Virus record (IMG/VR): IMGVR_UViG_3300009502_000025
Coordinates: 30,113-94,112 of that record
Direction: 5' to 3' (one strand)
DNA from: a virus
DNA length: 64,000 nucleotides
The notes below the pieces were generated by a model that was given only the letters and a program-made list of their open reading frames with translations, searched no databases and was not told where the DNA came from. Positions 4,633-46,198 of this stretch are shown in pieces. The position numbers were made by a program, and so were the translations under genes. How positions within the stretch are numbered: position 1 is the stretch's first letter; every line of letters starts with the position of its first letter.

Positions 4633-5085
4633 ATGCCTACACCTTCTTCTATGGAATACCTTAGTTTATTATACAAGGAATTGACTCGAAAACTGGAAAC
4701 TATTCATAAATACATAGATGCCATCGACAATCAGGTCGGTGACATATACCAGTCAGCTTATGAAGGCGTTTATATCTGTAAGCGCAAGTATGAGATCGTA
4801 GAAGACTATAAAGAAACAACTCCGAAGATTCATCCTCAAACTGAGTTCGCTTTTGAGCCGAGGCCCAATAAGCCTAAAAAAGGCGACACTGGACAGGATG
4901 TTCAGGAAACTATAGAAGACCTCAACGAAGATTTGAAATCTACCTTCGCTGAGATCAATTTCCGATTCTCTAAGCAGCAAGGAAACCTAGACAACCTAGG
5001 AAAGGTCCACTTAGAGTTACAGAATATTATTAATGAAATATTCCAAAATTGGAAAACCTTAAATGGAGATGAAGACAAGTTTTAA
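4633..5085 (+). CDS. Hypothetical coiled-coil protein
   Basis: 150 aa, mostly helical and charged. Two heptad-like regions (about residues 8-65 and 90-145) flank a Pro/Lys-rich linker (PRPNKPKKGDTG). GAGGG lies upstream of ATG. Its stop overlaps the stop of the polymerase N half on the other strand. No family recognised; it could be structural or a scaffold-like protein. Confidence 0.6.
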   Translation: MPTPSSMEYLSLLYKELTRKLETIHKYIDAIDNQVGDIYQSAYEGVYICKRKYEIVEDYKETTPKIHPQTEFAFEPRPNKPKKGDTGQDVQETIEDLNEDLKSTFAEINFRFSKQQGNLDNLGKVHLELQNIINEIFQNWKTLNGDEDKF

Positions 5086-7214
5086 CGCTTAATTACCAGG
5101 GTATCTGTTTCCTTTAGATTCCTCGCCTTCACTTCTTCTGTCTTCTCACCCCTTTTAACTTTTACTGTCTCGTCGGCAAAGAATACATATTCTTTGCCGT
5201 CTTGATTTATAATGACTTCATTAATTTCAAATTCTTTATTCCTGCAGAAGACATTCCAACCCGTCGTACTATGTACATCAGCGTTAGGATCTGTTTTATA
5301 GGCCTTCAGAAGGAACGCATCATTACCGTCCAAAGCTGCGAGCCTTAGTTGAAGCCCACTATAATCCATGGTTACTAGTTTACAGTGTTCTATATCAGGT
5401 ACACTTACAATTTCTTTGACCAGATCAGATCCCAACGAATGAGATGGCAAATTCGTCCAATTAGGTTCTCGACAAGTATTGCGCCCGGTTTCCGCACCCA
5501 TGACATTATATACAGGGTGGAGTTTGGACTTACCCAGATCCTCGTGAAACTTCAAGTGTTGTCTCCAACCCATATTCGTATCTGGTAGTCCTAAGAACGT
5601 CTTCTGCAACGTCTTGTATGCTCGGAGCTTCTTAAGAATAGTCGCTTCAGGTCTTCCCAATTGTTCCCACTGAGTTAACTGCTCGTCGCCTGTTAAATAA
5701 TAGCCAGACTTAGACATACCACAATTTTCCCACCCAAGCCACTTAAGTATTTCACCTAATTGCTTACCACTATTAAAATTAGACTCGGGGTCATCTTCAT
5801 CCGCGCAATCATCAAAGAAGCTATGAAAATCTAGACTCATTACCTTTAGTCCATGGCCGCCTAAGAATTCTTGTACCTTCAGCTTCTCGCTCAATTCTCT
5901 TTGAAGATCCTTCATCTCCTTATCTACATCGAGAGAATTCTTATCCCAAATATCCATGTCTACTTCGATACCCTGTATTTCAACAGGCACAAACATTTTC
6001 ATCGCTGGCATTCTTTTCTTTTCAAAGTACTCGCGCACAGTCCACCAACCCTCTACAGGCGGAGGCCAAGCGAGGTCAATCCAGTTTATTCTTTTCTCCA
6101 TCGCTTCATACACCTGGAAATTAATGATAGCGTCCATAGTCGCGTATTGTGATAAGATTTTTTCAGGTATGTCCAAGTACGTCTTTGGATTGTATCTTTT
6201 TTTATAGTCGTCTAAGTCTCTATCATAACCTCCAAATTGCGTATAATAGAAAGCTAAAGACTTCAAACTATTAGATCGAGACTCATTCAAAGTCTGTGCC
6301 ATGGGTAGAGTATCAATATCAATTTTCGCTGTAGATATGCCTGCATTCAAAAGAAACTTGACATCGAATTTTAAATTTTGTCCTATCTGGATCTTATTTC
6401 TAAAAAACTCGGTAAGTAGATTCTTATCTATTAGATACCAGGGAATATAGAAGCCTTCCCTGCCATCAAAAGACATCGTAATGCAACCTATGCGGTCATT
6501 AACAAAATCAAACCCTGATGTTTCCAAGTCCCAGCATACCTTACATGATACGGGAGTCCAAGCTTTAAGAAAATTATCAGCCTCATCTGCTTCCATAAGC
6601 TTGGTTATTTTTAAGCGCGTGGGACAAGGAGGTTCACTCAAGCCATCGTAATTTTTTAAAATCTTTTTGATTTGTATTTCTGCGAAATGCATTCTAAAAG
6701 AATCTCTGGGCAAAATTCCCATTGGAGTTATTTTAAATATGTCTTCTAGAGCGTCAATAGGAAATACGTTACACTCATATTCTCTCGAGTAAAAGTATGT
6801 TTGCGTGAACACTATGTCATAAAAACTATTTATGTGAATATTAGAATCGCCGGTTATACCATAAATGGCACGACCGGACGTTATCATGATAGTCTTGTCT
6901 GTCATGTATGAAAGAATATTCGCTGCGTTTCTCTTATAGTACTCCGCGACTCCCTCTTTTTTTATCTCTTCTGAAGTCTTGCTGTACTTCGAAAGACTCA
7001 CAATTCTATAATTGTAGCCTTGAGGTATCTGCCTGTCTAACCATTTTGTAAAGGCATCCAAGTGCCTTTGATTAGGGAATGTCTCTAAGACAATAATGAG
7101 ATGAGTCTCATCGTTACTATGAGCTCTCTCGTACAGAAGAGCTCCTTTTGTTTCCAAGCCGCTCCCCTTTTTAGAAGAGCCTAAAGATACATCGCCGAAT
7201 GTGAATGCTGCCAT
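5082..7214 (-). CDS. polA: DNA polymerase family A, N-terminal half (exonuclease plus motif A) with intein-like tail
   Basis: 710 aa. Residues 1-about 190 are not recognised. The 3'-5' exonuclease follows with Exo I (CWDLETSGF), Exo II (IGQNLKFDVKF) and Exo III (YATMDA). The polymerase domain starts with TGRNTCREPNWTNLP and motif A at D617 (DYSGLQLRLAA), then DVHSTTGWNVF. After Cys657 a 54-residue tail resembles the second half of an N-intein and ends KARNLKETDTLVIKR. Motifs B and C are absent and lie at 45401-46198. Motif A has Gln where family A normally has the steric-gate Glu. The start has no ribosome site; TATAAT lies five bases before ATG. Confidence 0.88.
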   Translation of the reverse strand: MAAFTFGDVSLGSSKKGSGLETKGALLYERAHSNDETHLIIVLETFPNQRHLDAFTKWLDRQIPQGYNYRIVSLSKYSKTSEEIKKEGVAEYYKRNAANILSYMTDKTIMITSGRAIYGITGDSNIHINSFYDIVFTQTYFYSREYECNVFPIDALEDIFKITPMGILPRDSFRMHFAEIQIKKILKNYDGLSEPPCPTRLKITKLMEADEADNFLKAWTPVSCKVCWDLETSGFDFVNDRIGCITMSFDGREGFYIPWYLIDKNLLTEFFRNKIQIGQNLKFDVKFLLNAGISTAKIDIDTLPMAQTLNESRSNSLKSLAFYYTQFGGYDRDLDDYKKRYNPKTYLDIPEKILSQYATMDAIINFQVYEAMEKRINWIDLAWPPPVEGWWTVREYFEKKRMPAMKMFVPVEIQGIEVDMDIWDKNSLDVDKEMKDLQRELSEKLKVQEFLGGHGLKVMSLDFHSFFDDCADEDDPESNFNSGKQLGEILKWLGWENCGMSKSGYYLTGDEQLTQWEQLGRPEATILKKLRAYKTLQKTFLGLPDTNMGWRQHLKFHEDLGKSKLHPVYNVMGAETGRNTCREPNWTNLPSHSLGSDLVKEIVSVPDIEHCKLVTMDYSGLQLRLAALDGNDAFLLKAYKTDPNADVHSTTGWNVFCRNKEFEINEVIINQDGKEYVFFADETVKVKRGEKTEEVKARNLKETDTLVIKR
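5085..5246 (-). other. Split-intein-like tail of the polymerase N half
   Basis: Codons 657-710. The end (KARNLKETDTLVIKR-stop) aligns by eye with the end of the NrdJ N-intein (EAQHLQPTDELIHD-stop), and an upstream DGKE / ETVKVKRG stretch occupies the block B region. A normal block A is missing and the whole piece is about half the usual length, so it may be a degenerate or atypical intein. Confidence 0.4.
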
Positions 7215-7219
7215 ACGAA

Positions 7220-7225
7220 ATTATA
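7220..7225 (-). promoter_or_regulatory. TATAAT box five bases before the polymerase start
   Basis: The minus strand reads TATAATTTCGTATG. A -10 box at this distance would start the mRNA at or next to the ATG (leaderless). Confidence 0.5.
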
Positions 7226-7280
7226 TGTTTTTTATTATGTAAATATTCGCTTGAAGAAAGATATGAGTTTCTAGATATTT

Positions 7281-7313
7281 GAATTTCGCATAACTAGAGG
7301 TTCGAATTTCGCA
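7281..7313 (+). repeat. Direct repeat pair GAATTTCGCA
   Basis: Two exact 10-base copies whose starts are 23 bases apart, next to an AT-rich tract. Iteron-like, but only two copies are seen. Confidence 0.5.
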
Positions 7314-7538
7314 CATCTATTAATATAAAAATAAGTAATATAAAATATATAAATATTAAGCCTTGCAGGCTAATTGTAAAAAGCCAGTATTAAGACCTAT
7401 CATTCTCTTCTTTTTGTATTATTATTCCGCGAAAAGGAACAGACCCGGACTTTTCGTAGGTATGATTTTTCCTATATACGCAGAAAAAAGAACAAAAGAA
7501 TCCGCAAAATACTTGCCACCGAGCACACAGCAAATGCT

Positions 7539-7553
7539 TATATTATATACGTA
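7539..7553 (+). promoter_or_regulatory. Promoter box TATATTATATACGTA of the GC-rich cassette
   Basis: Fifteen bases identical to 54736-54750, which precedes the J-domain gene. It lies 32 bases before an AAGGAG ribosome site region and ATG 7586. Confidence 0.6.
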
Positions 7554-7585
7554 AGCAAGAAACGAAGAACGCAAGGAGCCAAGAA

Positions 7586-7810
7586 ATGGCACGAATCGCA
7601 ATCGCGACCGGCAACAAAACCACGAATCACAGGACCGCACGGTCCGTCGTCACCCAGTACGACGTGAATTCGAAGGAGTGGCAGGACCGCATTACCAATC
7701 TTAATCGGGATCTCGATCGCAAGAACGACGGCTCGATTTCCAGGCTTCCCAACGGCAATACTCCGATGGTCGTCCCCGGCTACCGGACTCGAAGCATCTC
7801 CAGTTTCTGA
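7586..7810 (+). CDS. Hypothetical small basic protein
   Basis: 74 aa, ATG preceded by AAGGAG. First gene of the GC-rich cassette, with GC-rich third positions unlike the surrounding phage genes. The sequence is polar, rich in Asn, Arg and Thr, with no membrane segment and no recognised domain. Confidence 0.65.
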   Translation: MARIAIATGNKTTNHRTARSVVTQYDVNSKEWQDRITNLNRDLDRKNDGSISRLPNGNTPMVVPGYRTRSISSF

Positions 7811-7838
7811 ACCTGCACTCTAAAAGGAGAGTTTATAG

Positions 7839-8477
7839 ATGTCAATCAACGTGTGTTCCTATAAGATTACCGAGGCTGGTAGTCTTACGAATCCCGAGCC
7901 GGCTTCGTTTGCCGAGGTGTCCAAGCCCGACATGAGTCTCCGCAAGGGAATCACGGTTTACTTCGATACGAAGAAGTATACGGTTCTCGGTCAGGCGCCC
8001 ATCTACGCGCTTATCAGCGAGGCAGGGGAGGACGTGGCAATTCGAGTGCGCAAGAAGCACCTCTACGTCCCGAACGACGTTCTCAACGGCACCGCGATCG
8101 TGAAGATGGCGGCTCCTGCGAAAGTCAAGGTCGCCAAGGTCAAGGTCGAGAAGGCTCCTAAGGAGCCCAAGGCTCCGAAGGCGAAGAAGACACTCATTCC
8201 TGCTGTCGTGCAGGGTGCGTTCGAGACGCGCATGGCAGAGTTCCGTACCGACAGTGGTCGGAGCATCAAGGGCCTTCGCATCGAGAACACGGACGGTGCA
8301 TCCTTCCGCGTCATTGTCGTGGATCCTACTAAGTCTGGCTGGGTTCTCATGGCCTCAGATAAGTGGGACATTGGAGCCTACAAGTTCTACAACATCGATA
8401 CCATGGCGTCGAGAGATTTCGATCGCGCGGCCGATAAGCCGGGCCCTGGCGATTCCTCGATTGTGTGGCCGAAGTGA
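7839..8477 (+). CDS. Hypothetical protein with Lys/Pro/Ala linker
   Basis: 212 aa with AAAGGAGAG before ATG. An N-terminal domain (about 1-88, beta-rich) and a C-terminal domain (about 125-212) are joined by a repetitive Lys/Ala/Pro/Val linker (VKVAKVKVEKAPKEPKAPKA). Such linkers occur in nucleic-acid-binding or surface-display proteins, but no domain is recognised. GC-rich codon use is shared with its neighbours; a strong hairpin follows. Confidence 0.65.
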   Translation: MSINVCSYKITEAGSLTNPEPASFAEVSKPDMSLRKGITVYFDTKKYTVLGQAPIYALISEAGEDVAIRVRKKHLYVPNDVLNGTAIVKMAAPAKVKVAKVKVEKAPKEPKAPKAKKTLIPAVVQGAFETRMAEFRTDSGRSIKGLRIENTDGASFRVIVVDPTKSGWVLMASDKWDIGAYKFYNIDTMASRDFDRAADKPGPGDSSIVWPK

Positions 8478-8480
8478 AAT

Positions 8481-8505
8481 AGAGGGGGACCTTAGGTCCC
8501 CCTCT
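8481..8505 (+). terminator. Strong hairpin after the 7839 gene
   Basis: An 11-bp perfect stem (AGAGGGGGACC with GGTCCCCCTCT) and a TTA loop, three bases after the stop. There is no T run on either strand, so it could be a Rho-independent terminator of weak type or an mRNA-stabilising structure. Confidence 0.5.
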
Positions 8506-8522
8506 TAGGTGGAGAACATTAA

Positions 8523-8880
8523 ATGCGTAAGACGATTGACATTACGATGATGGACGGACAGGTGATCAAGGCTCCGCTGTGCCTGGTGTGGTGTGATATC
8601 AACGATACCCATACCGAACTCTATTTCGTATGGAAAACACCATATGGATGGATGCTTGTGTCTTAATGAAGACAGATATCCATCCCTATGGGACCACGCC
8701 GAGCCCATCGAGTTCCCGGACGTGTGGACGTTCGGCAAGGCGTGGGACGACGAACCAAATAATTTCGTATGGGGATATTTTAAGCTGGACGATAATGGCA
8801 ATTGGTTTCGCAAGAATAAGCGGGGTTCGTGGATCAACTTCACGCCCGGCCTCCCGCCCGCGACCATAGAGGGGGAATGA
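8523..8880 (+). pseudogene. Hypothetical protein gene split by an apparent frameshift
   Basis: From ATG 8523 the frame gives 47 residues (MRKTIDITMMDGQVIK ... TPYGWMLVS) and stops at 8664-8666. The next frame then continues as natural-looking protein (EDRYPSLWDHAEPIEFPDVW, then GKAWDDEPNNFVWGYFKLDD) to 8880. Joined near 8650-8665 they make a plausible protein of about 118 aa rich in Trp. The downstream part has no ribosome site of its own. It could be a real mutation, a sequencing indel, or two overlapping genes; family unknown. Confidence 0.45.
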
Positions 8881-9263
8881 TGGACAGGTACACCGAGACG
8901 GCGCGGAAGATAATTGGGATTATTGACTACAACCGTGACGAAGGAAGCTACACCGATCCATCAAAAGTAGCCGCCATCCTCCGCGAGGAGTTCCCCGAGC
9001 CCGCGCAGGACGCAATGGGTGTTGCTCGGCAGATAGCGCCTATATTTTGCTATCCTGTCGATTATCCCGGTATCGACGAAGCCGCCGCCCTCATCGAAGC
9101 CTACGCTCGCAAGCGCGTGGGGGGGGCGGCGGATAGGGCAGGGACATGGCTGAATACGCAATTCGGTGGTGGTGGGTTTGAAGATAATCCGGCAATCCAG
9201 CGGCTACGCAGCAGACAGCATATTTTCCTGCGCGCCGCGATCATCGGCAAGGAGGAAGTATGA
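8877..9263 (+). CDS. Hypothetical protein
   Basis: 128 aa starting at the ATG that overlaps the previous stop (ATGA) after AGAGGGGG. Helical, with PSKVAAILREEFP and a DEAAALIEAYARKR helix. The last 40 residues contain a Gly-rich turn (FGGGGFEDN) and a basic helix. Part of the GC-rich cassette; function unknown. Confidence 0.6.
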   Translation: MMDRYTETARKIIGIIDYNRDEGSYTDPSKVAAILREEFPEPAQDAMGVARQIAPIFCYPVDYPGIDEAAALIEAYARKRVGGAADRAGTWLNTQFGGGGFEDNPAIQRLRSRQHIFLRAAIIGKEEV

Positions 9264-9685
9264 CCAGGGATCAGATCGACAAGGTGCGCAATGCGATTGC
9301 ATACGGCAAATGTCTGTCGGAACGCGAAAATGGTGAGCGATGTACTGTTACAGAGCTTTTTACGGAGGCCCTCGCCCTCCTCGACGCTGAGGCCGCGCAG
9401 GACAACGTAGACCGACATGTCTACAAGCTGACTGTGCAGCAACGTGATCTTGCATGGACGCAACTCAGGACAGCCGAGGTTGTGGAACGAGAGCTTGAGG
9501 CAAGAATCAAGGATTGCGAGACCCGCGAGAAGGCGCTCAGGGAGGCGCTTGACAACGCGGCGGCACAAATCGAATCACTAGCGCTATCATTTCAAAGCCA
9601 CGGCATCATGGAGCATTACGACCGGGCTTTGAAATGCGCCTACGCTGCCCGTTCCGCCTTGCTCGGCCCAGGAGGCGAGGGATGA
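9260..9685 (+). CDS. Hypothetical coiled-coil protein
   Basis: 141 aa, ATGA overlap with the previous gene, AAGGAGG ribosome site. Residues about 60-110 form a long charged coiled coil (REKALREALDNAAAQIESLA), followed by an Ala-rich C-terminal helix. Similar helical proteins are common unknowns in accessory regions of phages. Last gene of the GC-rich cassette. Confidence 0.6.
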   Translation: MTRDQIDKVRNAIAYGKCLSERENGERCTVTELFTEALALLDAEAAQDNVDRHVYKLTVQQRDLAWTQLRTAEVVERELEARIKDCETREKALREALDNAAAQIESLALSFQSHGIMEHYDRALKCAYAARSALLGPGGEG

Positions 9686-9706
9686 TCAGATAGATACATA
9701 ACTTTC

Positions 9707-9738
9707 AAAAAGTCCTCTCTAAGAGAGGACTTTTTTTT
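9707..9738 (+). terminator. Rho-independent terminator closing the GC-rich cassette
   Basis: A long stem (AAAAGTCCTCTC with GAGAGGACTTTT), loop TAA, and eight T in a row. It separates the cassette from the primase region. Confidence 0.9.
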
Positions 9739-9823
9739 ATGCCCGTATAGCTCTCCAAAGCGCCTTAGGTCCTCTCGTTATAACTCAATTTTCCTAGTAA
9801 GAAGAGAGAATTTATGCCGTTAC

Positions 9824-9830
9824 ACTAATT
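9824..9830 (+). promoter_or_regulatory. ACTAATT motif upstream of the 9847 gene
   Basis: ACTAATTG, then AAGGAG, then ATG 9847: motif and ribosome site almost touch. Confidence 0.45.
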
Positions 9831-9846
9831 GATAAGGAGCCTCAGA

Positions 9847-10443
9847 ATGTATATCGATGAGTATCAACCTATGTCAGAAATGCACACATGGATGAAGGGA
9901 CGTGGAGTTGATGTAAATGTATACATATGCATTCAATCGGTGCTGAGTTTGGGAGACGAACGAAAAAAAGATCTTGACGTCTTTTTAAAAACATTCGGAG
10001 GACCATTCACTCTCCAGCATAATGGATCTTTTCATGAATACGATTGGAATATTTACACGAAGCCTAGCATAGGATACTATTACAATAAATACTTAGCCAG
10101 CGGCCCAGGGTATGATAATCCCGGAAAGCTTTACACTATAGATTTAAAAGATGGATCCTATGCATCAGAGCACACGCATGTTTTTATCAAAACAGCTTTA
10201 TATGAAGTTTTAAAAAGACATGAGGATCTTCATTGGTATATCGTCAATGATTTCATGGACTCAGACTCCGGACCCTCTAATTCTAAATTCAGAGGCCATG
10301 AAGTTCTATCGACGGAAGAAGTAAAACCGTTTCTTGAAGATGAGCTGGTCAAAGCGGTTGCGTCGTGGAAGATGAGCAAAGAGAATTATAATGAAGGTGG
10401 GGCCGGACAAATGCCAAGAATGATTAAGTTAGGCCTATTATGA
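9847..10443 (+). CDS. Hypothetical protein
   Basis: 198 aa from the ATG that follows AAGGAG by eight bases. A mixed alpha/beta sequence rich in Tyr and Trp in the middle (FHEYDWNIYTKPSIGYYYNK) with no recognised motif. It overlaps the next start by four bases (ATGA), so the pair is likely co-translated. The codon use returns to that of the main phage genome. Confidence 0.6.
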   Translation: MYIDEYQPMSEMHTWMKGRGVDVNVYICIQSVLSLGDERKKDLDVFLKTFGGPFTLQHNGSFHEYDWNIYTKPSIGYYYNKYLASGPGYDNPGKLYTIDLKDGSYASEHTHVFIKTALYEVLKRHEDLHWYIVNDFMDSDSGPSNSKFRGHEVLSTEEVKPFLEDELVKAVASWKMSKENYNEGGAGQMPRMIKLGLL

Positions 10444-10922
10444 TTGATGTAGATTTTCTATATGCAGTATTCCAGCCCTGCCCTCCTCGTAACATAGTAT
10501 GGTATTGGTTAGACCCTCAAAAACAAAGTTACAAACGAGTATCTAAAATTGATTCTTTCATAGAATTTGTTGAGAATAAAAATAGAAAAGTGCTACCTCA
10601 GATGAAGGAGGCCCTATGCACGTACTCTTTTTGGATGTGGAATCAAGTCGACAATAGGGTGATTTTATTACATCCTTCCGATGCACAAGACCGCACCTAT
10701 AGAGATCCGCTCGCCAGTTACTTTAAGAAGGGGCTAAAAGGGCAGGACCCCTTTGCACCAGAAGAGCAAGATCCTTTGAGTCACTTATATAAACTCGGCT
10801 TTCAGATGCCCAATGAAGATGATATTAAAAATCTCAGAGTCAGAATGACCCCTACAAAACAAAAATCTTTTTTGGCGCGCATAGGAAACATCTTACCAGG
10901 AAATACCTCGCGAAAAAAATAG
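10440..10922 (+). CDS. Hypothetical protein
   Basis: 160 aa. The N-terminal part is rich in aromatic residues (NIVWYWLDPQKQSYKR), the middle is acidic, and the C-terminus is basic (TPTKQKSFLARIG...SRKK). Directly upstream of the primase. No domain recognised. Confidence 0.6.
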   Translation: MIDVDFLYAVFQPCPPRNIVWYWLDPQKQSYKRVSKIDSFIEFVENKNRKVLPQMKEALCTYSFWMWNQVDNRVILLHPSDAQDRTYRDPLASYFKKGLKGQDPFAPEEQDPLSHLYKLGFQMPNEDDIKNLRVRMTPTKQKSFLARIGNILPGNTSRKK

Positions 10923-10923
10923 C

Positions 10924-10929
10924 TATATT
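10924..10929 (+). promoter_or_regulatory. TATATT box five bases before the primase start
   Basis: TATATTCTAGTATG: the start codon lies where transcription would begin, and there is no ribosome site. Confidence 0.5.
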
Positions 10930-10934
10930 CTAGT

Positions 10935-11915
10935 ATGAGGAATCATCCATATAGTACAGATCAAATAAAGTTAGCCCTGCGAAAACTCGGCGTCAAGTTT
11001 CCCTCGAGCATCGACTCTAAAGATAGAGCCATGGCTCATTGTCCTTTCCACTCTGACAGTACAGCTTCGATGTCTATCGATTTTACACGTGGAATCTTTC
11101 ACTGCTTCTCTTGTGACGCATCCGGCTCCATCAACACCTTATCTGAAAAAATGACAGGAAGAAAACTCGATGTTCTTCTAGGCGTCGATACTTCTTTCTC
11201 CATGTTTTCAGGTCATATAAAACAAGAGTACACCCCAAAACCAATTAATGAAGAAGATGTCACGATTGATGTGCGAGGCATCGTCGCTCCTTGGACCCAT
11301 GTGCCAGAAGCTATTGGGTATGTAAAATCTAGATTCATACCTCCAAGAATAGCAACGGCGATGCAAATGGGGTTCATCAAAGAAGCGTATGTGAATGGCA
11401 CGTACTATGAGGATCGCTTAGTGATTCCTATCTATGGAAAATCTGGCAAGCTTATCAATCTTGAAGGTAGGGACGTGACAGGAACTCATAAACTAAAGTG
11501 CTTATATCCTCACGGTATAACGAAGACAATCTATGAATGGTATAAGCTTGACAAAGAGAAGCCTTTATATGTCGTTGAGGGACTGACGAAGATGGCTTGT
11601 CTTCGCGGCGATGATTATTTTGCGAATTCGACCACTATCTTCGGGGCATCCGTAACCGCATATCAGATGGATTTACTTAGCGAATTTAAGAAGGTCGTGT
11701 TAATACCGGACAATGATGAGCCTGGAAAAAAGGTTATCGATACCTTTAAAAATAGATTAAGAACTAAATTCGATGTTATGAGAATACAGGATACAGCAGC
11801 AAAAGATATTGATGAGATTCCTCGTAAGCTTGGTCTCGGCGTCGAGGAATACAGAAAGAAGGGCGGATTTCTCATACAAGGTTTCACTTCTTTTCTTTTC
11901 GGGGAATTTGCCTGA
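10935..11915 (+). CDS. DNA primase, DnaG type
   Basis: 326 aa. A CHC2 zinc finger opens the protein (C36-PF-H39 and C57-FS-C60), which in DnaG binds template DNA. The RNA-polymerase/Toprim core follows, with VVEGLTKMACL (conserved Toprim Glu, about residue 214) and VVLIPDNDEPGKK (DxD motif, about 257-269). It makes RNA primers for lagging-strand synthesis, probably with the DnaB-type helicase at 53302. It is short compared with bacterial DnaG (about 580 aa) because the helicase-interaction domain is absent, as in many phage primases. Confidence 0.9.
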   Translation: MRNHPYSTDQIKLALRKLGVKFPSSIDSKDRAMAHCPFHSDSTASMSIDFTRGIFHCFSCDASGSINTLSEKMTGRKLDVLLGVDTSFSMFSGHIKQEYTPKPINEEDVTIDVRGIVAPWTHVPEAIGYVKSRFIPPRIATAMQMGFIKEAYVNGTYYEDRLVIPIYGKSGKLINLEGRDVTGTHKLKCLYPHGITKTIYEWYKLDKEKPLYVVEGLTKMACLRGDDYFANSTTIFGASVTAYQMDLLSEFKKVVLIPDNDEPGKKVIDTFKNRLRTKFDVMRIQDTAAKDIDEIPRKLGLGVEEYRKKGGFLIQGFTSFLFGEFA

Positions 11916-20536: not shown

Positions 20537-22651
20537 ATGAAGCAATTTGATCAAGCCAGCATTCAAACCAGACTTGAAACCTTTCTTAAAGCACAGCCCG
20601 GATTTGCCCAGGTACTGAAGGACTCTGCAGTAGAAAGTGTTCTTTACTCCGTATCGGAGTCCGAGGCAGAACTAGCCCGTTACTTTGAGTACCTTTTTCA
20701 AGAATCGAAGTGGGAAACCGCTCAGAATGTATCCTCACTTATTTCTGCAGGTAAATTCCTAGGATACTCTCCTAAACGTCAGATAAGTGCTATGGGAAAT
20801 ATTTATATATCCCATGATTCCTTATTGAGCCAAGCGGGAACCTCTCTCATATTTGATTCTTCTGATCTTGCAAATGCAGGCTTATCTTCTTACCCCAATA
20901 CAAGCTTTCTTATTCCCGCTCTAACAGCCGTAGTGTCATCCACAGGAATCCAATTCGTAACAATGTCTGACACCACGTATTATGGGCCAAATGACTTGTC
21001 TGGAAACGCAGCCTCAAAGTACGTAGAAGTACCAGTCATACAAGGTATCATACGAACTTTCAGGACCACATCTGGAGCAACTAGCACTGCATTTGAATCT
21101 ATTAAGATTCCTAATCCCGGGATCGAGGCCGCATACACTTCCCTATCATCTCCGTTTTTTCAGGTGACCATATATCCCTCAGGAAACTCCAATCTAAATT
21201 ATGCCTTGACCGAAGCTGCTGGAGATGTGGTCAGATACTCTGATATTAGACTGGCATCCGAAACAGAGTATGCCTACGACATTACTACCTTAGACGATTA
21301 CTCCGGAGTCATTATTCGATTCGGCGACGGGAATTCTGGTAGACTTCTGCCTCCAGGAGCTCTAGTAGCTGTTCGCTACTTGGAAACTTTAGGAACTAGT
21401 GGAAATCTTAATCAGAGATACTCCACAACGAGATTCGTAGTGCCCCTCTCCTCCACTCAAACTTTCTATGTTACCAATCTAGATCCTATTTTAGGTGGAT
21501 TAGGTAATGAGGGCATTGAAGAAATAAGAGTCAACGCTCCTAACGAGTATCTCATAGGTGGAAGCGTCATTACTACTGCTGACTACAAAGCCACCTTGAA
21601 ACAAATTCCTAATATCCTAAAATCAAATGCTTACGCAGGAGATTATACGGGGTCTGATAGTATAACTAGAAGAGTTATCTACTTGACAGCTTTGGATTCC
21701 ACACAGAATATTCCAGACGCAGCTACGTTAAATCAGAATATTTTAAATATTATTCTCGATAATAAATCTCCTTTGGATTTACTACAAGTTATAGACCCCA
21801 GTATCATAGAGTTAAAGCTACAAGCCAAAATAACATCTTCTGCTGATCAAGCATCCTTTTCTAATTTAGCAACAACTTTGGAAACAAGCACACTTAATTC
21901 CTTCGGAGTTCCTGCCTTTGATTTCACAAAGAGCTTCTATTCCTCTGATTTTATTACCTTGTTGAAGAACAATAAGACAGTACAGCAAGTATCACCCCTC
22001 CTCGAATCCGTTATAAATATCAAACCCAGTACCTTCCTTTCATCAGGAACTCACCCAGGATACTACTTCACTAACTTCACTTTTAATCCTATTCTGAGTC
22101 CTTTGTTAGATTTAAGTGGAACACGAAGCGACGGATACTGTTTAAAAATTAATATAATCTTTAATTGCGTAGCCTGCGAAGGTAGTAGTAGAACTTTAAT
22201 GGTTAGACAGGATCCGCTGCATCCTGGAGTTCCCATAGATATGCAAGCTTATTCTGCAGGAACTCATGGAGGACTCGTCCTTAAACAGTACGCGCACATC
22301 TCAAGTATAACAGACCAGAGTTTCATAACAAATTCAATTGACACTTCAATAGTCCCTGAAATATTGTCATCTGCAGGCGCAACATACATTCCATTCCTTC
22401 TAGACTTTACTTACTCCAATTTATCTAATTCTAGTAACTTAGGGCATGGAACTTTATACATTCCTCTCTACAAGAGCGACGGCACTTTGTATGCCGGCTT
22501 CACTTCTTTAGATTCTGTAACCTTGGATGAAACCATAACAGTGGAAATCATAGCTCAGCCAAGCTCAGCAAATATTACGCCTCAGAATGAAAATGAATTT
22601 ATAAAAGTAGGAACAAATGACGTTAGCGTTGAGGTGTATACAACACTATGA
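20537..22651 (+). CDS. Baseplate wedge protein, gp6-like (baseplate J family)
   Basis: 704 aa. The N-terminal helical part (QTRLETFLKAQPGFAQVL, SVSESEAELARYFEYL) and the central beta domain with GVIIRFGDGNSGRLLPPGA are hallmarks of gp6/GpJ proteins. ADYKATLKQIPNILKSNAYA is the conserved segment of the next domain. gp6 dimers form the inner ring of the baseplate. It follows gp25 exactly as in T4. Confidence 0.88.
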   Translation: MKQFDQASIQTRLETFLKAQPGFAQVLKDSAVESVLYSVSESEAELARYFEYLFQESKWETAQNVSSLISAGKFLGYSPKRQISAMGNIYISHDSLLSQAGTSLIFDSSDLANAGLSSYPNTSFLIPALTAVVSSTGIQFVTMSDTTYYGPNDLSGNAASKYVEVPVIQGIIRTFRTTSGATSTAFESIKIPNPGIEAAYTSLSSPFFQVTIYPSGNSNLNYALTEAAGDVVRYSDIRLASETEYAYDITTLDDYSGVIIRFGDGNSGRLLPPGALVAVRYLETLGTSGNLNQRYSTTRFVVPLSSTQTFYVTNLDPILGGLGNEGIEEIRVNAPNEYLIGGSVITTADYKATLKQIPNILKSNAYAGDYTGSDSITRRVIYLTALDSTQNIPDAATLNQNILNIILDNKSPLDLLQVIDPSIIELKLQAKITSSADQASFSNLATTLETSTLNSFGVPAFDFTKSFYSSDFITLLKNNKTVQQVSPLLESVINIKPSTFLSSGTHPGYYFTNFTFNPILSPLLDLSGTRSDGYCLKINIIFNCVACEGSSRTLMVRQDPLHPGVPIDMQAYSAGTHGGLVLKQYAHISSITDQSFITNSIDTSIVPEILSSAGATYIPFLLDFTYSNLSNSSNLGHGTLYIPLYKSDGTLYAGFTSLDSVTLDETITVEIIAQPSSANITPQNENEFIKVGTNDVSVEVYTTL

Positions 22652-28292: not shown

Positions 28293-30314
28293 ATGAGCTT
28301 ATTATACTCCGACTTAAAAGTCCCAACATCCGCCTACAATCTAGATACTCCTACCACCTTAACCATAAGTGGTACTACAGTATCCAGAGCCACTATGGCA
28401 GGCACTGTAGCTTCTACTCCCCCTTTAACAGGGCAACAAATACACGATAACTTTTTAGTTGTTGCCTATGGAGTCAAGGCCGTAGAAACTCGAGCCACTG
28501 CCTTGGAAGCTTTGGGGCAAGTAACAGGGGCGGCTGCAACTGGATATTTAAAGTATAATGGCTTAGTGGATCTCGATGGAGCTATGTTCGGGGGATCTCC
28601 TTGGTCAGTCACAGGTTCAGTCGCTATAACTGGGGGCGCTCTTACTGTAGCTTCTGCTTTAAGTACCCAAGTTCAAGTGAACGGAGGTACTGTACTTGCC
28701 ACCTTATACTTGCCTGCAGCTACGTACTCAAGTACGGCAAACTATATTTCTAGTATATGGCTCAAAGGATCCTCAGTAAGCGTGACGGACGCCAATACCT
28801 TTACGATGACAGGAACTGTAAACTTATCTGGCGTAACAAAGACGGCCGGCTGGACTTTTACTGTATCTGTGAACGGCGGCGTTGCTACTACAGTGACTGT
28901 TACACTTTCGTCAGGCAGTGGAGCTACTAATATTGCCTCGGATATTCAATCGGCTATCACCGCCGCAGGAGCTGGAGTTAGTTCCTATCTATCGTGCGCT
29001 GCTTCAACAAACTTTATTAAGTTTACCGGTGCTGGAGGGGCGTATACAGTATCTATAGCGGGTACTGGAACTATACAAACAGTTATCAATGGAATAGCCG
29101 GGCCTTGGAACCTCTGGGACTTATCCTCTAGAATAACATTCTCAAATCCCTCAGCGAATTATGTGGCGATAAGCGGTTATGCTACGGTATCCTCTAACTT
29201 CATATTCACCAAGCCTGGCTCTAATGATTTGATGACAGCAATAGGTACTGTGGCTGGAATGGGATTCGTAGGAAATGTCACGCCGACAATTTATCATACT
29301 GTGAGGCTTGTTTCCTCCTCCACGAATCTAAACTTCAAAGCTAACTTATACGCGCCTTCGATAACTACGAATACGCTAACAATATCTTCTTTGGCTATTA
29401 CAGGCGGTCTCGCAGTAACCGGAAACGTTGTAGTAACAGGCGCAATATCTGCTACAACGGATATATCCGCTTCAGGCAACGTAACTGTAGGAGCATCTGT
29501 TTCTACTACTACACAGGTAACAGGATTATTTAAAGTCAAGTACCCCGGTTTCAACAATATTATTTCTGCAGACGCTTCTGGAAACTTAATTGTCGTAGAT
29601 ATATACGCAGCAGCAACGTATGGTTCCTTTATTGTTCAGCCTGGTTACTGGGGAGCCTTACCTTCATTATCTGTAGACGCTGCCGGAACTTTGAATGTTG
29701 GAAGCATAGGTGGGGTACCTGCAATGACAGTAAATGGTGCTGGATTACTGAAGACTAAAAATATTCAAGTCTTATCAGCTACTCCCTTAGCGGGAACTTC
29801 TTGCTTATTTCTCGCCACATCATACGCTGGTGCGGGATGGGCCGGGAGCTCTGATATCTTAGGATACTCTGGAGGTATTAAAGCAAATACCTTAGCTTCT
29901 GTATCTAACGCAACCTTCGGGGGCGTAACTACTCTTGGCGGTGGTTTAGTAGCGGCTACTCTTGGCACAGCTACTACTGGCACGACTCTCATTGTTGACG
30001 GCTCAGGAAATATTAGACCAACAAGTTCTGATATTCGATTAAAGAAGAATATACAGCCTATCAATTATGGGCTGAAAGACTTATTAAATATCCGCGGAGT
30101 AACCTTTAATTGGAAAGATCCTACTGAAGGGCAGGAAACTTTAAGGAACTTGGGTTTTATTGCTCAGGAAGTTAGAGAGATATTCCCTGAAGTAGTATTC
30201 GGAGATGAAAGTAAAGAGATGCTTTCTATTAACGCTACTTACCTCATTCCCGTCATTGTCGAGGCAATAAAAACACTAAATAATAAGATTGAAGAGCTAA
30301 AAAGCCTTCAGTAA
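28293..30314 (+). CDS. Tail fibre protein with C-terminal S74 chaperone/peptidase
   Basis: 673 aa. A long Thr/Ser/Gly/Ala-rich shaft is followed by an intramolecular chaperone from about residue 575: SSDIRLKKNIQPINYGLKDL, then RNLGFIAQEVREIFPEVV and a coiled coil end. In S74 domains the Ser and the following Lys form the autocleavage dyad; both are present. The chaperone trimerises the fibre and is cut off during maturation. The N-terminus does not look like the other fibre, so the two attach differently. Confidence 0.85.
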   Translation: MSLLYSDLKVPTSAYNLDTPTTLTISGTTVSRATMAGTVASTPPLTGQQIHDNFLVVAYGVKAVETRATALEALGQVTGAAATGYLKYNGLVDLDGAMFGGSPWSVTGSVAITGGALTVASALSTQVQVNGGTVLATLYLPAATYSSTANYISSIWLKGSSVSVTDANTFTMTGTVNLSGVTKTAGWTFTVSVNGGVATTVTVTLSSGSGATNIASDIQSAITAAGAGVSSYLSCAASTNFIKFTGAGGAYTVSIAGTGTIQTVINGIAGPWNLWDLSSRITFSNPSANYVAISGYATVSSNFIFTKPGSNDLMTAIGTVAGMGFVGNVTPTIYHTVRLVSSSTNLNFKANLYAPSITTNTLTISSLAITGGLAVTGNVVVTGAISATTDISASGNVTVGASVSTTTQVTGLFKVKYPGFNNIISADASGNLIVVDIYAAATYGSFIVQPGYWGALPSLSVDAAGTLNVGSIGGVPAMTVNGAGLLKTKNIQVLSATPLAGTSCLFLATSYAGAGWAGSSDILGYSGGIKANTLASVSNATFGGVTTLGGGLVAATLGTATTGTTLIVDGSGNIRPTSSDIRLKKNIQPINYGLKDLLNIRGVTFNWKDPTEGQETLRNLGFIAQEVREIFPEVVFGDESKEMLSINATYLIPVIVEAIKTLNNKIEELKSLQ

Positions 30315-42474: not shown

Positions 42475-42497
42475 TTTAAACGAATTTTCGAAAAATA

Positions 42498-42528: not shown

Positions 42529-42539
42529 ATTAGAGATGT

Positions 42540-42546: not shown

Positions 42547-42553
42547 TGGAACG

Positions 42554-42997: not shown

Positions 42998-43470
42998 AAA
43001 ACAAAGATTTAGAGGACGCAAAAAACATGTTAACTGCTACGTTGGTGGAATCCACTAAAACACCAACCTTATACGACCCTTCTACAGAAGTAGAGAGATC
43101 ATTATCTAGCTTTCTTCAACATAGGCTGACCAAATTGCAGGAGGACGCTTCAAGAGAAGAAACTATATGGGAGGCTATAACAGAGAGAGTCTCTGAGTTC
43201 AATCCTGATCAGCTAATGAGGCTTCTAAATATTCTACAAGAGAATAGTAACTCAGGCGTTGAAAAAATCCTGAGTCCTTTCATTCCGAGAGCAGGGGAAA
43301 GAATTCCCCTCTTGCCTGACAACTCAAAGAAGAGTAAGGATATCGTCGAAGAGACAATATTCAATGAGTCTGGTAAAGATTTGATGGAGGCCTTTTCCGA
43401 ATTGAACTCCCTAGTGAGGGAAATGGCTAAGACAAGAGAAACTGAGGATATAAAGAAAGTACTGTCGTAA
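42994..43470 (+). CDS. Hypothetical coiled-coil protein
   Basis: 158 aa with AAGGTAG before ATG. Helical and charged (SSFLQHRLTKLQEDASREET; DQLMRLLNILQENSNSGVEK), with a Pro-rich link (SPFIPRAGERIPLLPDNS) near the middle. Length and helices would allow a small terminase or scaffold protein, but nothing in the sequence decides this. Confidence 0.55.
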   Translation: MKNKDLEDAKNMLTATLVESTKTPTLYDPSTEVERSLSSFLQHRLTKLQEDASREETIWEAITERVSEFNPDQLMRLLNILQENSNSGVEKILSPFIPRAGERIPLLPDNSKKSKDIVEETIFNESGKDLMEAFSELNSLVREMAKTRETEDIKKVLS

Positions 43471-43472
43471 AA

Positions 43473-43591
43473 TATACTTTTCTGTATCTTTAGAAAGGAG
43501 GTGATCCTAATCTAAAGGTGACGAAAATGTACAAAAATAAAAGGTAGGAATATGCTAAGAGGCTCTCTGAAAAGAGAGCCTCTTTTTTATA
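43473..43591 (+). ncRNA. Candidate small RNA with 17-base complement to the 16S rRNA 3' tail
   Basis: A TATACT box (43473-43478) is followed by TAGAAAGGAGGTGATCC (43491-43507), the exact complement of 16S rRNA 3' ends that read GGATCACCTCCTTTCTA. Only a six-codon open frame (ATG 43527, stop 43545) follows, then a terminator hairpin at 43557-43591. The whole unit would be an RNA of about 105 bases. It could sequester 30S subunits, or it may be the leader of the minimal open frame. The call is inference; the complementarity is direct observation, given that 16S ends are known. Confidence 0.3.
43557..43591 (+). terminator. Rho-independent terminator, plus strand
   Basis: A 12-bp stem (AAGAGGCTCTCT with AGAGAGCCTCTT), GAAA loop and a T run that contains the stop codon of the convergent helicase gene. 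Confidence 0.9.
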
Positions 43592-45404
43592 CACTACTCA
43601 TCTCAAATATCATCTTCGCTGTATTACGATCTAAGTACTGTTGAGTACCGAACTTTTTAGTTGTGAAGTCCTTATCTTCCAAATTCATATCTCGAACACA
43701 ATCTAAGGAGTTATCAATAATTAGGAGATAGGTGTACACCGTCTTCTGTTGCCCAATACGATGAATACGAAATATAGATTGGTTATACTCTGTATAATTC
43801 CAGGTTCTATCAAAGTAAATAGCTATATTAGCCTCAACAATAGTCACGCTGCTATTAAGAACCTGTATGCCCGCAATAAGAATATTGCGATCTTTCGAGG
43901 CTTGAAAATCTGCTATGATATCTGCCTTGAATTCATCCAGGGTCCTCCCCTTCGGTACTTTGACTTCCCCGTTGATGAGATAGGGCTGCCTCTTTTCTAA
44001 GATTACCGCCAGTTCTTGACCGACTGTAGGATGAGAGCACCATATAATAATTTTTTCGTTAGGATGCTTTTCTAAGAGATCATCCAAAGCTCCCATCTTA
44101 CAGTGATTAGAGAACTTAAATTTTTCGACCTTGCGAATAAGATTGTCTGGTAACTTTGTTTCATGGTTTAAAAGTAAGCTTGGATTATCGATGGCTAAGG
44201 AGAGATAGGGGAAAGAATTAAACACAGCTCGAGAGTCTATGCCTCCGTAAAATTCTTGTATGGCTCGTAGTTTTTCTACAACGATTCCTTGGTAGATTTC
44301 CTTCTGCTCATCAGATAGCTCCACATAAATCTTCTGTATGAAGTGCTCAGGCAACTCCAAAACGTCGTCAGCAAATCTTCGAGTAGACACTGATTTTACA
44401 ATATCAGCCATCTCTATAAGTTTATTGGGTTTGAAGTAATTGATAGCATATAAAGAAAATCTATTGCCAGTATCTGCATACTCTTGTAGCCACTCGAAGT
44501 AAGAGAAATTCTTTACTAAGGCGGGATCTAAGAACTTCAGCTGTGAGTAGTACTTCTCTTCTCTGTCTGCAGGAGTTCCTGTTGCAATGTATCTATACTG
44601 AAAGAAGGGAGCGGCAAGGTGTATGGCCTTAGATTGCCTGGCTTGAGGATTCGCGATATTATGTGATTCGTCCAGGATAATGATGCCAACATCTCCCTGA
44701 AGCCAATCTCGAAAGGGAATAGGACACTTACGATAATTCTTTGAATTGGATATCTCTTCCTGATACTCATCAGATACTAAGAGGAAAGATCGGTAGCTGC
44801 AGATGACAACATGAGATTTCACGTCGTCAAAAGGTCGCCGGTTTTTAATTCCCCCAACTCTAACATCTGATGAGTCATAGTTAGAAAATCTCCCCAGTTC
44901 TCTCTTGATATTGTAAGTGCCAGACCCTGAGGTAATGATAAGTACTTTTCTGACGTCTTTGTATTTACGGAGTAATTCAAGGGTGTTACATAGTATCCAG
45001 CTCTTCCCGGTACCTTGTTCATTAAAAAGAGCATATCGGTTGTAACTGGAGCATTTAGATAGGTCTTCGAGTTGGAAATATTCATGCGGCGCCTTCCCCA
45101 TAATGGGTTGTACTTTTAAATCATCTTTAGTAAAAGGAATTCTTTGAAATTCGATCGATCTCTTGGGAGTCTTCAATATCTCTATCTGAGACCATACTTC
45201 GTTTGTAATATAAAGTTCTTCTACGTCTCCCAAAGCGTCTATGACAGAGTCATAAACAGACGTCGGAATACACCACTGTTTACTCTTTGGTTCAAACTGA
45301 CATCGATATCTCTTATATATAGTAAGATCTGTATCGAAGGCGTTGACCGAGAATAATTGACTGGCATATATTTTATCGTCGCGAACTAGAATCTGAATGC
45401 TCAT
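43587..45404 (-). CDS. SNF2-family DNA helicase
   Basis: 605 aa. Helicase motifs in order: I NEQGTGKSW (about 126-134), II LDESHN (about 243-248), III ATGTPADR, a C-terminal IIIWCSH, and motif VI RIHRIGQQKTVYTYLL. The QxxRxxRxGQ-type motif VI is specific to SNF2-like translocases. Such proteins remodel protein-DNA complexes or stalled forks; phage versions (for example of the UvsW/UL9 group in role) help recombination. The start overlaps the stop of the polymerase C half by four bases, so the two are co-translated. Confidence 0.88.
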   Translation of the reverse strand: MSIQILVRDDKIYASQLFSVNAFDTDLTIYKRYRCQFEPKSKQWCIPTSVYDSVIDALGDVEELYITNEVWSQIEILKTPKRSIEFQRIPFTKDDLKVQPIMGKAPHEYFQLEDLSKCSSYNRYALFNEQGTGKSWILCNTLELLRKYKDVRKVLIITSGSGTYNIKRELGRFSNYDSSDVRVGGIKNRRPFDDVKSHVVICSYRSFLLVSDEYQEEISNSKNYRKCPIPFRDWLQGDVGIIILDESHNIANPQARQSKAIHLAAPFFQYRYIATGTPADREEKYYSQLKFLDPALVKNFSYFEWLQEYADTGNRFSLYAINYFKPNKLIEMADIVKSVSTRRFADDVLELPEHFIQKIYVELSDEQKEIYQGIVVEKLRAIQEFYGGIDSRAVFNSFPYLSLAIDNPSLLLNHETKLPDNLIRKVEKFKFSNHCKMGALDDLLEKHPNEKIIIWCSHPTVGQELAVILEKRQPYLINGEVKVPKGRTLDEFKADIIADFQASKDRNILIAGIQVLNSSVTIVEANIAIYFDRTWNYTEYNQSIFRIHRIGQQKTVYTYLLIIDNSLDCVRDMNLEDKDFTTKKFGTQQYLDRNTAKMIFEMSSV

Positions 45405-46198
45405 TGGAGATTATGCTCCTTGAAATATTTTCTCCAGTCTACGCCGCCTTTATAGTACTCCCCCTCACGAGGATCTGCGATAACAATATCTACTGTCAAA
45501 GGAACACCCTTCTGCCAGGGTTCCATTCTTTCAAATATTTCTTTGATCTTGGCTATCACCTCTTTCATTTCATTATCCCAGATAATGAAATCTACAGAGT
45601 CGTGAACCATACCTTGTATATAGGATTTAATATTATTGGCTTCTTTCCAGATTTGGAAATCGACCATGCAACCCATTACTTTACAAGCCTCATCATTTTG
45701 AATAGTCGTGTTGGCTAAGATATTATAAAGGCCCGCTACTTCTTTTCTATCCTCATCCTTACCTTTTAGCATAAGAACTGGCGTTCTGCGAATTGCTCCG
45801 TGGTAAGAACGAACATATCCCTGCTCCTCGCCTATCTGCTTATTACGCTCAATGCGATCAGCAAGTCCTTTATATGTCTTAAAGAATTGGTCTCGAATAT
45901 AATCAGCGACCGTAATGTAGCCCCACATTTTAGGTTCTACATCTTTATACTTCTTAGCAATATTAAATTTCTTGTCGTAGAGCTGAAATTCCTCTATGAA
46001 GTCGTCGACCTGCTCTTGCGTCCATTTTACAGATAAAGTAGTCTCGGCGAATGTTATGGAAGCCATACCGAATAAAAATCCGAAGTTAACTGCTTTCGCC
46101 ATTTGTCTGTATACATCGTAAATGTTATCTTTCTGGCGCAGTCTCTTAAATTCAATTTCTGTTATGGGCCTCATGACTTTTCTATGTGTGATTTTCAT
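45401..46198 (-). CDS. polA: DNA polymerase family A, C-terminal half (motifs B and C)
   Basis: 265 aa from ATG 46198 (281 aa if TTG 46246 is used). It carries motif B, YRQMAKAVNFGFLFGM, with the catalytic Arg, Lys and Phe, and motif C, MVHDSVDF. The end, PLTVDIVIADPREGEYYKGG, is the usual palm/thumb closing region. The exonuclease and motif A are in the other half at 5082-7214. Motif C has Ser where most family A enzymes have Glu (HDE to HDS). No C-intein motif (HN followed by Cys, Ser or Thr) is seen before residue 50. No ribosome site; TATATT lies six bases before ATG 46198. Confidence 0.88.
   Translation of the reverse strand: MKITHRKVMRPITEIEFKRLRQKDNIYDVYRQMAKAVNFGFLFGMASITFAETTLSVKWTQEQVDDFIEEFQLYDKKFNIAKKYKDVEPKMWGYITVADYIRDQFFKTYKGLADRIERNKQIGEEQGYVRSYHGAIRRTPVLMLKGKDEDRKEVAGLYNILANTTIQNDEACKVMGCMVDFQIWKEANNIKSYIQGMVHDSVDFIIWDNEMKEVIAKIKEIFERMEPWQKGVPLTVDIVIADPREGEYYKGGVDWRKYFKEHNLQ

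Follow-up and report, generated by a model that had tools for sequence, protein, structure and literature searches.

A family A DNA polymerase encoded by two distant phage genes, with a putative splicing-dead split-intein remnant at the site of fracture

The stretch of viral DNA analysed here, called the window (64,000 nucleotides; positions 30,113 to 94,112 of IMG/VR record IMGVR_UViG_3300009502_000025), encodes a family A DNA polymerase (PolA) as two minus-strand genes located about 38 kb apart, and the question is what brings the two products together. A preliminary description of this locus had offered three alternatives: a new, reduced type of splicing intein, a decayed intein which only holds the polymerase together, or a plain split polymerase without any link.

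Two genes for one polymerase

The features of the two genes are as follows:

5082..7214, minus strand: gene for the PolA N half, 710 aa (Pfam PF01612 and PF00476; relatives), with N-terminal region, 3'-5' exonuclease, thumb, the part of the palm with motif A, and a C-terminal tail
45401..46198, minus strand: gene for the PolA C half, 265 aa, fingers and palm with motifs B and C (Pfam PF00476; relative L027)
5334..5375, minus strand: motif A, VTMDYSGLQLRLAA, with catalytic D617 (residue conservation in N halves)
46064..46108, minus strand: motif B, RQMAKAVNFGFLFGM (alignments)
45590..45613, minus strand: motif C, GMVHDSVD, with H199 and D200 (invariant in two alignments)

Both the open reading frames and Pfam agreed with the earlier proposal that the polymerase is broken into an N gene with exonuclease and motif A and a C gene with motifs B and C. 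The N half matched DNA_pol_A_exo1 (E 2.8e-14) and positions 29-198 of DNA_pol_A (E 6.8e-19), and the C half matched positions 200-376 of DNA_pol_A over two stretches (E 5.2e-18). The C half is 44% identical to the stand-alone relative L027; its gene starts at ATG 46198, with a longer frame from TTG 46246. The polymerase motif residues found were D617, RQMAKAVNF and VHD, and the exonuclease motifs found in the N half were DLE, NLKFD and YATMD; D617, Q622 and R624 were invariant in all 13 N-half sequences. The AF2 model of the N half (pTM 0.68) gave a Foldseek match to Klenow/Pol I (E 2e-14). With all three polymerase motifs (A, B and C) and the 3'-5' exonuclease motifs present, the protein belongs by sequence to the family A DNA polymerases.

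A second assembly, IMGVR_UViG_3300025162_000021, encodes N and C halves which are both 100% identical to those of the window. At 170,592 bp the longer of the two, it carries an exact repeat of 127 bp at its ends, and the contig of the window crosses the terminal-repeat junction at 100% identity. The second assembly therefore appears to be a complete circular or terminally redundant genome of about 170.5 kb. No intact PolA was found in it, and the two pieces described above are its only family A pieces, which disposes of an uninterrupted polymerase elsewhere in the genome, a possibility raised in the preliminary description.

Distribution of the fracture among relatives

The polymerase is broken at the same site in nine or more lineages, for the most part at 30-45% identity; the split of PolA is old. 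These fractured relatives were recovered solely by alignment-based searches. Single-protein queries of IMG/VR and of GenBank phages returned the same phage or distant polymerases of about 20-27% identity, without an insert. A single match to a degenerate DNA pattern for DxHxxTG[WYF]NxF, in L023, proved unrelated.

The halves of the relatives are adjacent, in reversed order, or 4 to about 80 kb apart, layouts which fit the earlier suggestion of rearrangement after the fracture. Other close relatives have an uninterrupted polymerase gene without any insert at the fracture site. None of the relatives recovered has an intact intein at the fracture site, and we therefore infer, rather than observe, an ancestral intein.

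L118 and L119 share the fracture, and the ends of their N halves are not recognised by the tail profile described below; their motif A is eroded (GDSGTEYNLAEF) and DxHS is absent. A cut located before motif A and followed by a block-B-like tail was considered for these two and rejected, since the alignment gave the same split site and an eroded motif A.

The polymerases of L120/G012 and L199 have an additional, apparently genuine split intein at motif B, resulting in three-gene polymerases, and trans-splicing at that motif is likely. In L199 a gene for a TnsA-like endonuclease sits between the genuine intein halves. In L196 the exonuclease domain is broken as well, and the tail at that further fracture is weakly similar; in L112 a GIY-YIG gene adjoins the C half. 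No homing endonuclease gene adjoining the halves was seen in the window when neighbouring ORFs were scanned.

Homology of the tail to split N-inteins

Three features were annotated at the end of the N half:

5082..5246, minus strand: tail, residues 657-710, putative truncated and splicing-dead split N-intein remnant, proposed docking clamp (conservation in nine lineages, profile matches to N-intein ends, four predicted strands)
5154..5201, minus strand: degenerate intein block B, DGKEYVFFADETVKVK, with TxxH changed to FADE (alignment with six genuine split N-inteins)
5094..5132, minus strand: block N4-like motif, VKARNLKETDTLV (the same pattern closes genuine N-inteins)

The N halves of at least nine fractured lineages terminate in this tail, in which A697, L700 and D704 (A40, L43 and D47 of the aligned tail) were invariant in 9/9 sequences. 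The tail is not recognised by Pfam or NCBIfam. A profile built from it picked up genuine split N-inteins at their ends, with E-values of about 1e-6 to 1e-4: in a search of 19,559 ORFs, the best non-training matches were split N-intein ends (NrdA of this phage, E 2.7e-5; NrdA of L109, E 8.6e-5). On whole records its matches were confined to PolA N ends and to genuine split N-inteins of NrdA and SbcC; three phages with a continuous polymerase gene gave none. Profile-profile comparison (hhalign) aligned tail columns 10-49 with the last 45 of 104 N-intein columns at a probability of 91.7%. The resemblance to split N-inteins noted in the preliminary description is thus real; the comparison sequence EAQHLQPTDELI, labelled NrdJ there, comes from this phage itself, where it closes the NrdA N-intein.

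In the AF2 model of the window's N half the tail formed four strands with pLDDT mostly 81-86, and the incomplete palm had pLDDT mostly 39-68. Block N4 and homology to the distal half of N-inteins were both found in the tail, which identifies it, as far as profiles and predicted structure go, as the distal half of a split N-intein, comprising blocks B and N4.

Between L110 and L111 the tail differs by 10 synonymous and 2 nonsynonymous changes (dN/dS 0.04, P 4e-6). The N core (dN/dS about 0.04) and the C half (about 0.02) of the same pair are under strong purifying selection. Given its presence in at least nine lineages and the purifying selection on it, the tail is a retained module, and the word "decayed" used for it previously needs qualifying.

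The head of the C half and its predicted pairing with the tail

One feature of the C half is the proposed counterpart of the tail:

46172..46198, minus strand: head MKITHRKVM, C half residues 1-9, proposed strand pairing with the tail (heads of similar form on other C halves and none in continuous relatives; strand predicted in L199)

Tail and head are both missing from the unsplit relatives L117, L113, L116 and L122. The head's likeness to a C-intein extends to the first strand at best, and heads of this length do not permit homology to be tested by sequence. Structure prediction was made on L199, whose two genes abut in frame, so that tail and head could be tethered in cis via read-through of one stop codon; the head carried no alignment information. 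The AF2 model had a pLDDT of 80 and a pTM of 0.61, with the head as a strand (residues 64-72). The first 43 PDB matches of this model in Foldseek were all inteins or Hedgehog Hint domains, with TM up to 0.71; the E-values are modest (4.9e-3 at best) owing to the small size of the module. Tail and head are thus predicted, on relative L199 only, to form a Hint fold of about half a complete Hint domain, and the Hint-like pairing supposed in the preliminary description is supported for that relative.

Absence of the splicing machinery

Were tail and head a new, extremely reduced split intein, they would still trans-splice the two polymerase halves. The tail is related to genuine split inteins, and the likely trans-splicing at motif B in L120/G012 and L199 points the same way. 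The intein blocks (nomenclature as in PMC6892783) argue against this. Block A, which holds the residue-1 nucleophile directly after the N-extein, and block N2 are absent from the N half, confirming for block A what had been described earlier: the polymerase sequence extends to NVF and leaves only about 15 residues before block B, the corresponding number being about 70 in this phage's NrdA N-intein. The Thr and His of block B, which reads TxxH or SxxH in six genuine split N-inteins, were replaced in all eight aligned tails (FADE in the window, and FGGE, YADE, QEKD, LGGQ, LGGE, LSEQ and YEDQ).

On the other side, the C half is indeed without a C-intein recognisable by sequence: blocks F and G are absent and about 9 residues lie ahead of the polymerase sequence. 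There is no conserved terminal Asn, the junction residue being other than Asn in the window and variable among relatives, and position +1 is mostly R, L or V. The residue following the N-extein is C, A, Y or S, and neither junction has a conserved nucleophile. Tail and head amount to about 63 residues, versus about 130 for a complete splicing domain. With block A, N2, the block B Thr and His, blocks F and G and the C-extein nucleophile all absent, trans-splicing of the PolA halves is judged very unlikely from these sequences, and so is the first of the alternatives given above, a reduced intein that still splices.

Discussion

Of the three alternatives, a decayed intein that only holds the polymerase together is the best supported, with the qualification already made. 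We consider it quite probable that a split intein was reduced to its fragment-docking core and retained as a non-covalent clamp joining the PolA halves. The replicative polymerase would then be a two-subunit enzyme, whose gene was broken between motifs A and B at a former split-intein site. The intein would have shed all its extein-adjacent parts, losing block A and N2 from the N side and F and G from the C side, and kept those through which the fragments of a split intein recognise one another: the tail of 54 residues would be what was the N fragment's distal half, from block B to N4, and the 9-residue head what was the C fragment's first strand. In genuine split inteins the region corresponding to the tail is the fragment-association part (PMC11923092). 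Tail and head may fold as a small Hint-like beta clamp which joins the halves without a peptide bond, the polymerase core completing itself once they are joined; we infer both the binding in the cell and the assembly of active enzyme that would result.

That the halves join via the native polymerase interface alone, the tail being a leftover without a role in assembly, is unlikely, even though split polymerases and split NrdA of T4-like phages re-assemble without splicing (PMC2988022). The tail is conserved across lineages whose N halves are only 30-40% identical, is under purifying selection, keeps its predicted fold and accompanies the fracture everywhere except in L118/L119; a plain unlinked split leaves this conserved tail unaccounted for. 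There is a slim chance that the tail binds a partner other than the head, such as DNA, clamp or helicase. It is predicted to fold alone, and the position of the block B His always holds E, Q or D, which hints at a newly acquired, conserved role; against this, it occurs only at the fracture, facing a C half with an extra head of its own, its region is the one used for fragment association in genuine split inteins, and tail and head are predicted as a single Hint-like unit. It is scarcely probable that the polymerase is dead or being lost, with the phage using that of the host or another one, as the eroded motif A and missing DxHS of L118/L119 might suggest: the window retains an intact set of exonuclease motifs and of motifs A, B and C, divided between the halves, the strong purifying selection on the L110/L111 N core and C half speaks for function, and a search for family A found no other such polymerase in the genome. 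Although the sequences are metagenomic assemblies, an artefact in which two phages were joined, as the preliminary description had allowed for, or one gene was cut has negligible probability, since two contigs with different breakpoints, one of them closed, agree at 100% in both halves and the same fracture occurs in independent phages.

The clamp proposed here can be compared with several known systems. Phage genes fractured at a split intein (PolB1 of Aeromonas phages Aes123/Aes508, PolB of MIJ3 and this phage's NrdA) are likewise divided into two ORFs, with an N fragment that closes with block B and N4 at the same end point as the tail. Their inteins retain all six blocks (A, N2, B, N4, F and G) and either splice or are presumed to do so, whereas the PolA remnant has lost A, N2, F and G and has other residues in block B.

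The NrdA of phage Aeh1 is, similarly, an essential enzyme in two unspliced pieces, and the window's PolA, too, has extra tails on both cut ends which are absent from unsplit relatives. According to Crona and co-workers (2011), the cut-end tails of Aeh1 NrdA are reportedly derived from a mobile element and are interaction domains essential for activity; we know of no Hint-like origin for them. Searched with the tail profile as candidates for the same module, they were negative (E above 700). The Aeh1 gene differs in having been cut by the homing endonuclease gene mobE, which its two genes flank. Split NrdA of Aeh1 is functional as two non-spliced polypeptides, and gp43A and gp43B of phage 25 co-purify with polymerase activity (PMC2988022). 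The split gp43 (PolB) of Aeromonas phages 25 and 44RR is also a replicative phage polymerase in two polypeptides, but of family B and with no intein remnant reported. In OM43 phages MEP401 and MEP402 the DNA polymerase gene is in two pieces (PMC10580990), which differ from the halves described here in being neighbours with a small ORF between them; we know of no intein or clamp described for them.

The Hedgehog Hint domain is, like the proposed clamp, a Hint-derived module with a job other than splicing, and bacterial intein-like domains have a Hint fold and do not splice. Such non-splicing Hint domains are complete and chemically active, whereas the PolA module is half-sized, spread over two genes and without catalytic residues. 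No report of a splicing-dead split intein serving as a clamp was found in the open-licence literature. It seems reasonably likely that there is a natural family of splicing-dead, miniaturised split inteins, long kept as a heterodimer clamp at a gene fracture, making an essential enzyme obligately two-subunit and freeing the genes to separate.

Split inteins are known for repairing the damage that they cause by ligating the halves. In PolA the ligation chemistry is lost in every lineage seen and the fragment-recognition part is conserved, and the element thus seems to have turned into a permanent protein connector. If this is true, exaptation of the docking half of an intein would be a concrete path from a selfish element to a multi-subunit enzyme, and would offer a natural and very small (about 54 + 9 residues) intein-derived non-covalent pairing module. 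It also opens to experiment the question of how a replicative polymerase, though essential, persists in split form over long evolutionary times with its genes tens of kilobases apart.

The polymerase is encoded by two distant genes

The window, which corresponds to bases 30113-94112 of a 94,112-bp viral contig, encodes one family A DNA polymerase (PolA) as complementary parts in two minus-strand ORFs:

5082-7214, minus strand: PolA N half, 710 aa, exonuclease and PF00476 positions 29-198
45401-46198, minus strand: PolA C half, 265 aa from the ATG at 46198, PF00476 positions 200-376

These ORFs and their complementary PF00476 parts confirm the split into two genes about 38 kb apart noted in the preliminary description. 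A second, independent assembly of the same phage (IMGVR_UViG_3300025162_000021, 170,592 bp) contained both halves at 100% identity. The first 127 bp of this assembly recur exactly at its end, and the window's contig spans the junction at 100% identity, so that the phage genome appears to be closed. No PolA match beyond the two halves was found in the whole 170,592-bp contig. An assembly artefact and a hidden intact copy, the two explanations considered beforehand, were excluded because the independent, closed-looking assembly agrees and carries only the same two PolA pieces.

An SNF2-type helicase gene (43587-45404, minus strand) has its start overlapped by the C half, which also lies just upstream of the homologous helicase in loci L027, L168/L169 and L171. 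Within the phage genome, 61061-62308 (plus strand) encodes a phrog_506-family transposase (E 1.6e-109).

Fractured and continuous relatives

Relatives of the polymerase were recovered by alignment-based searches. In the continuous polymerases (loci L026/L117, L113-L115, L116 and L122) the DxHS helix of the N half runs into the first C-half segment with nothing between, as in L026: HSMTAQAVLKRDISLNEFFKL. Fracture at the same site was found in the window phage, L190, L109, L110/L111, L112, L120, L195, L196, L199 (a locus in a Fusobacteriaceae MAG) and L118/L119; L027 has a stand-alone C half, 44% identical. The C gene is directly upstream of the N gene in L195, N precedes C by ~4 kb in L112, and the halves are separated by ~32 kb in L110/L111, 38 kb in the window phage and ~80 kb in L120 (record G012). 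Fractured and continuous forms make up one clade (100/100), in which L199, though fractured, is placed among the continuous forms; hence the site was fractured on two or more occasions, or a fracture there was reversed once. These comparisons indicate that the fracture is old and common to several lineages.

Motif A (5334-5375, minus strand) reads DxxxxQxR here and in the aligned relatives, the Gln being invariant in the clade. The glutamate of DYSQIELR is the steric gate of Pol I; the invariant Gln occupies its place in the alignment and might affect ribonucleotide discrimination. In L118 (5162-7180) and L119 (6621-8639), which have the same fracture, motif A is eroded (GDSGTEYNLAEF) and DxHS is missing. 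Purifying selection nevertheless acts on their gene. Possible explanations are an inactive polymerase or a motif A located elsewhere.

The tail of the N half resembles the distal part of split N-inteins

A recognisable tail of ~50 residues terminates every N half except those of L118/L119. A profile built from eight tails was run on 19,559 ORFs from all loci collected. Outside the training set it matched best the ends of two genuine split N-inteins, those in NrdA of the window phage (E 2.7e-5) and in NrdA of L109 (8.6e-5); the L195 tail came next (E 0.015). Weak scores were obtained for the N-intein in the middle gene of L199 (0.78) and for the split PolB N-intein of Aes123 (8). On whole records the profile also detected the genuine SbcC split N-intein of L109's phage (E 1.3e-4), and it found no match in three phages with a continuous polymerase gene. 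Profile-profile comparison with five genuine N-inteins gave 91.7% probability, the tail aligning to the distal 45 of 104 columns. Among PDB sequences, the window tail matched the Aes123 split intein alone (9hth, E 0.013). By the intein block nomenclature of PMC6892783, the tail has blocks B and N4 and is without A and N2. Judged by sequence, the tail represents one half of a split N-intein, which bears out the resemblance and the missing block A described previously.

Between L110 and L111 the tail showed 10 synonymous and 2 nonsynonymous changes (dN/dS 0.04; binomial P 4e-6, for one phage pair), similar to the N core (0.04) and the C half (0.02). This pattern indicates that the tail is kept by selection, for which its conservation across lineages is broader evidence than this single pair.

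The residues for splicing are absent

Block B reads TPDH, TPDH, SADH, TEDH, SWAH and TADH in six genuine split N-inteins, and FADE, FGGE, YADE, QEKD, LGGQ, LGGE, LSEQ and YEDQ in the eight tails. No conserved nucleophile was present at the start of the aligned tails. The C half begins with ~9 extra residues (the head), MKITHRKVM, followed by polymerase sequence; other heads are MNIERVTVN in L027 and MITIKKEKKN in L120's phage. In the C halves blocks F and G and a conserved Asn are absent and position +1 is mostly R, L or V, in line with the earlier view that the C half has no recognisable C-intein.

The same phage provides an internal control in its NrdA, which is interrupted by a complete split intein showing all those features:

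1142-3868, minus strand: NrdA, ribonucleotide reductase large subunit, two almost abutting genes; N-intein of ~105 aa with TPDH, C-intein of ~33 aa ending KN|C

A whole-genome search for the intein splicing domain matched only NrdA, QueE and one further large ORF, and revealed no loose intein fragment able to complement the PolA remnant. Splicing of the PolA tail and head by known chemistry would be very unlikely.

The QueE-like 7-carboxy-7-deazaguanine synthase gene (50036-51907, plus strand) is interrupted by a full intein, and may point to deazapurine-modified phage DNA. Outside the window, at bases 8284-11451 of its contig, locus L021 is a ~1400-aa frame, terminase-like by eye, with seemingly two inteins carrying LAGLIDADG-like segments. 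In L109's phage the SbcC-like ATPase (L223; 1153-1608, 1642-2760, 2681-3103) has a genuine split intein at the Walker A motif, and a TnsA-like endonuclease gene lies between the SbcC halves.

Predicted fold of tail and head

The N gene of L199 is followed directly and in frame by the next gene, so tail, linker and head could be modelled in one chain by reading the intervening TAG as a residue; this read-through tethers the tail to the head. The AlphaFold2 model had pLDDT 80 and pTM 0.61, and the head (MKIKNIEVK) was predicted as a strand, although without alignment support. The first 43 Foldseek matches in the PDB were all inteins or Hedgehog Hint domains (TM up to 0.71); the small size of the module keeps the E-values modest (best 4.9e-3). 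In the model of the window N half the tail formed four strands (pLDDT mostly 81-86) and the palm, there without its other half, was mostly at 39-68.

Additional fractures in relatives

The C half of L120's phage and of L199 carries a further break inside motif B, made by a complete-looking split intein with C at position 1 and a C-intein ending HN|C or GQ|C.

G012 C1:14568-15260, 22404-22505 and about 96-98 kb: pieces of the three-gene polymerase of L120's phage

Both thus have a three-gene polymerase, which would be clamped at the motif A/B joint and spliced at the motif B joint. In L196 the exonuclease domain is also cut. The tail there is weakly similar (E 0.7), the head is MIKIIERVEDTK, and the pieces are separated by an ORF with DUF7487.

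A putative non-covalent clamp

Three alternatives were initially proposed: a new or highly reduced split intein, a decayed intein whose halves hold the polymerase together, and a split polymerase with unlinked halves. The second is the best supported. Split-intein fragments are first drawn together by charge, the distal lobe of the N fragment pairing with the C fragment; collapse into the Hint fold follows (PMC11923092). The tail derives from this distal lobe, and the counterpart of the head would be the strand with which the C fragment begins. Most heads are basic, and most tails are acidic or neutral. An ancestral split intein would have lost blocks A/N2 and F/G and retained its docking core as a non-covalent clamp; the polymerase would then be a heterodimer with its halves joined by the clamp.

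Assembly of the split NrdA of Aeh1 reportedly needs tails derived from a mobile element; these tails do not match the module described here. Split phage enzymes able to work without splicing have precedents (PMC2988022). Fragmented enzymes assembled by mobile-element-derived tails are a kind already known, to which this polymerase would belong; no description of a dead split intein reused as a protein connector was found in the literature searched.
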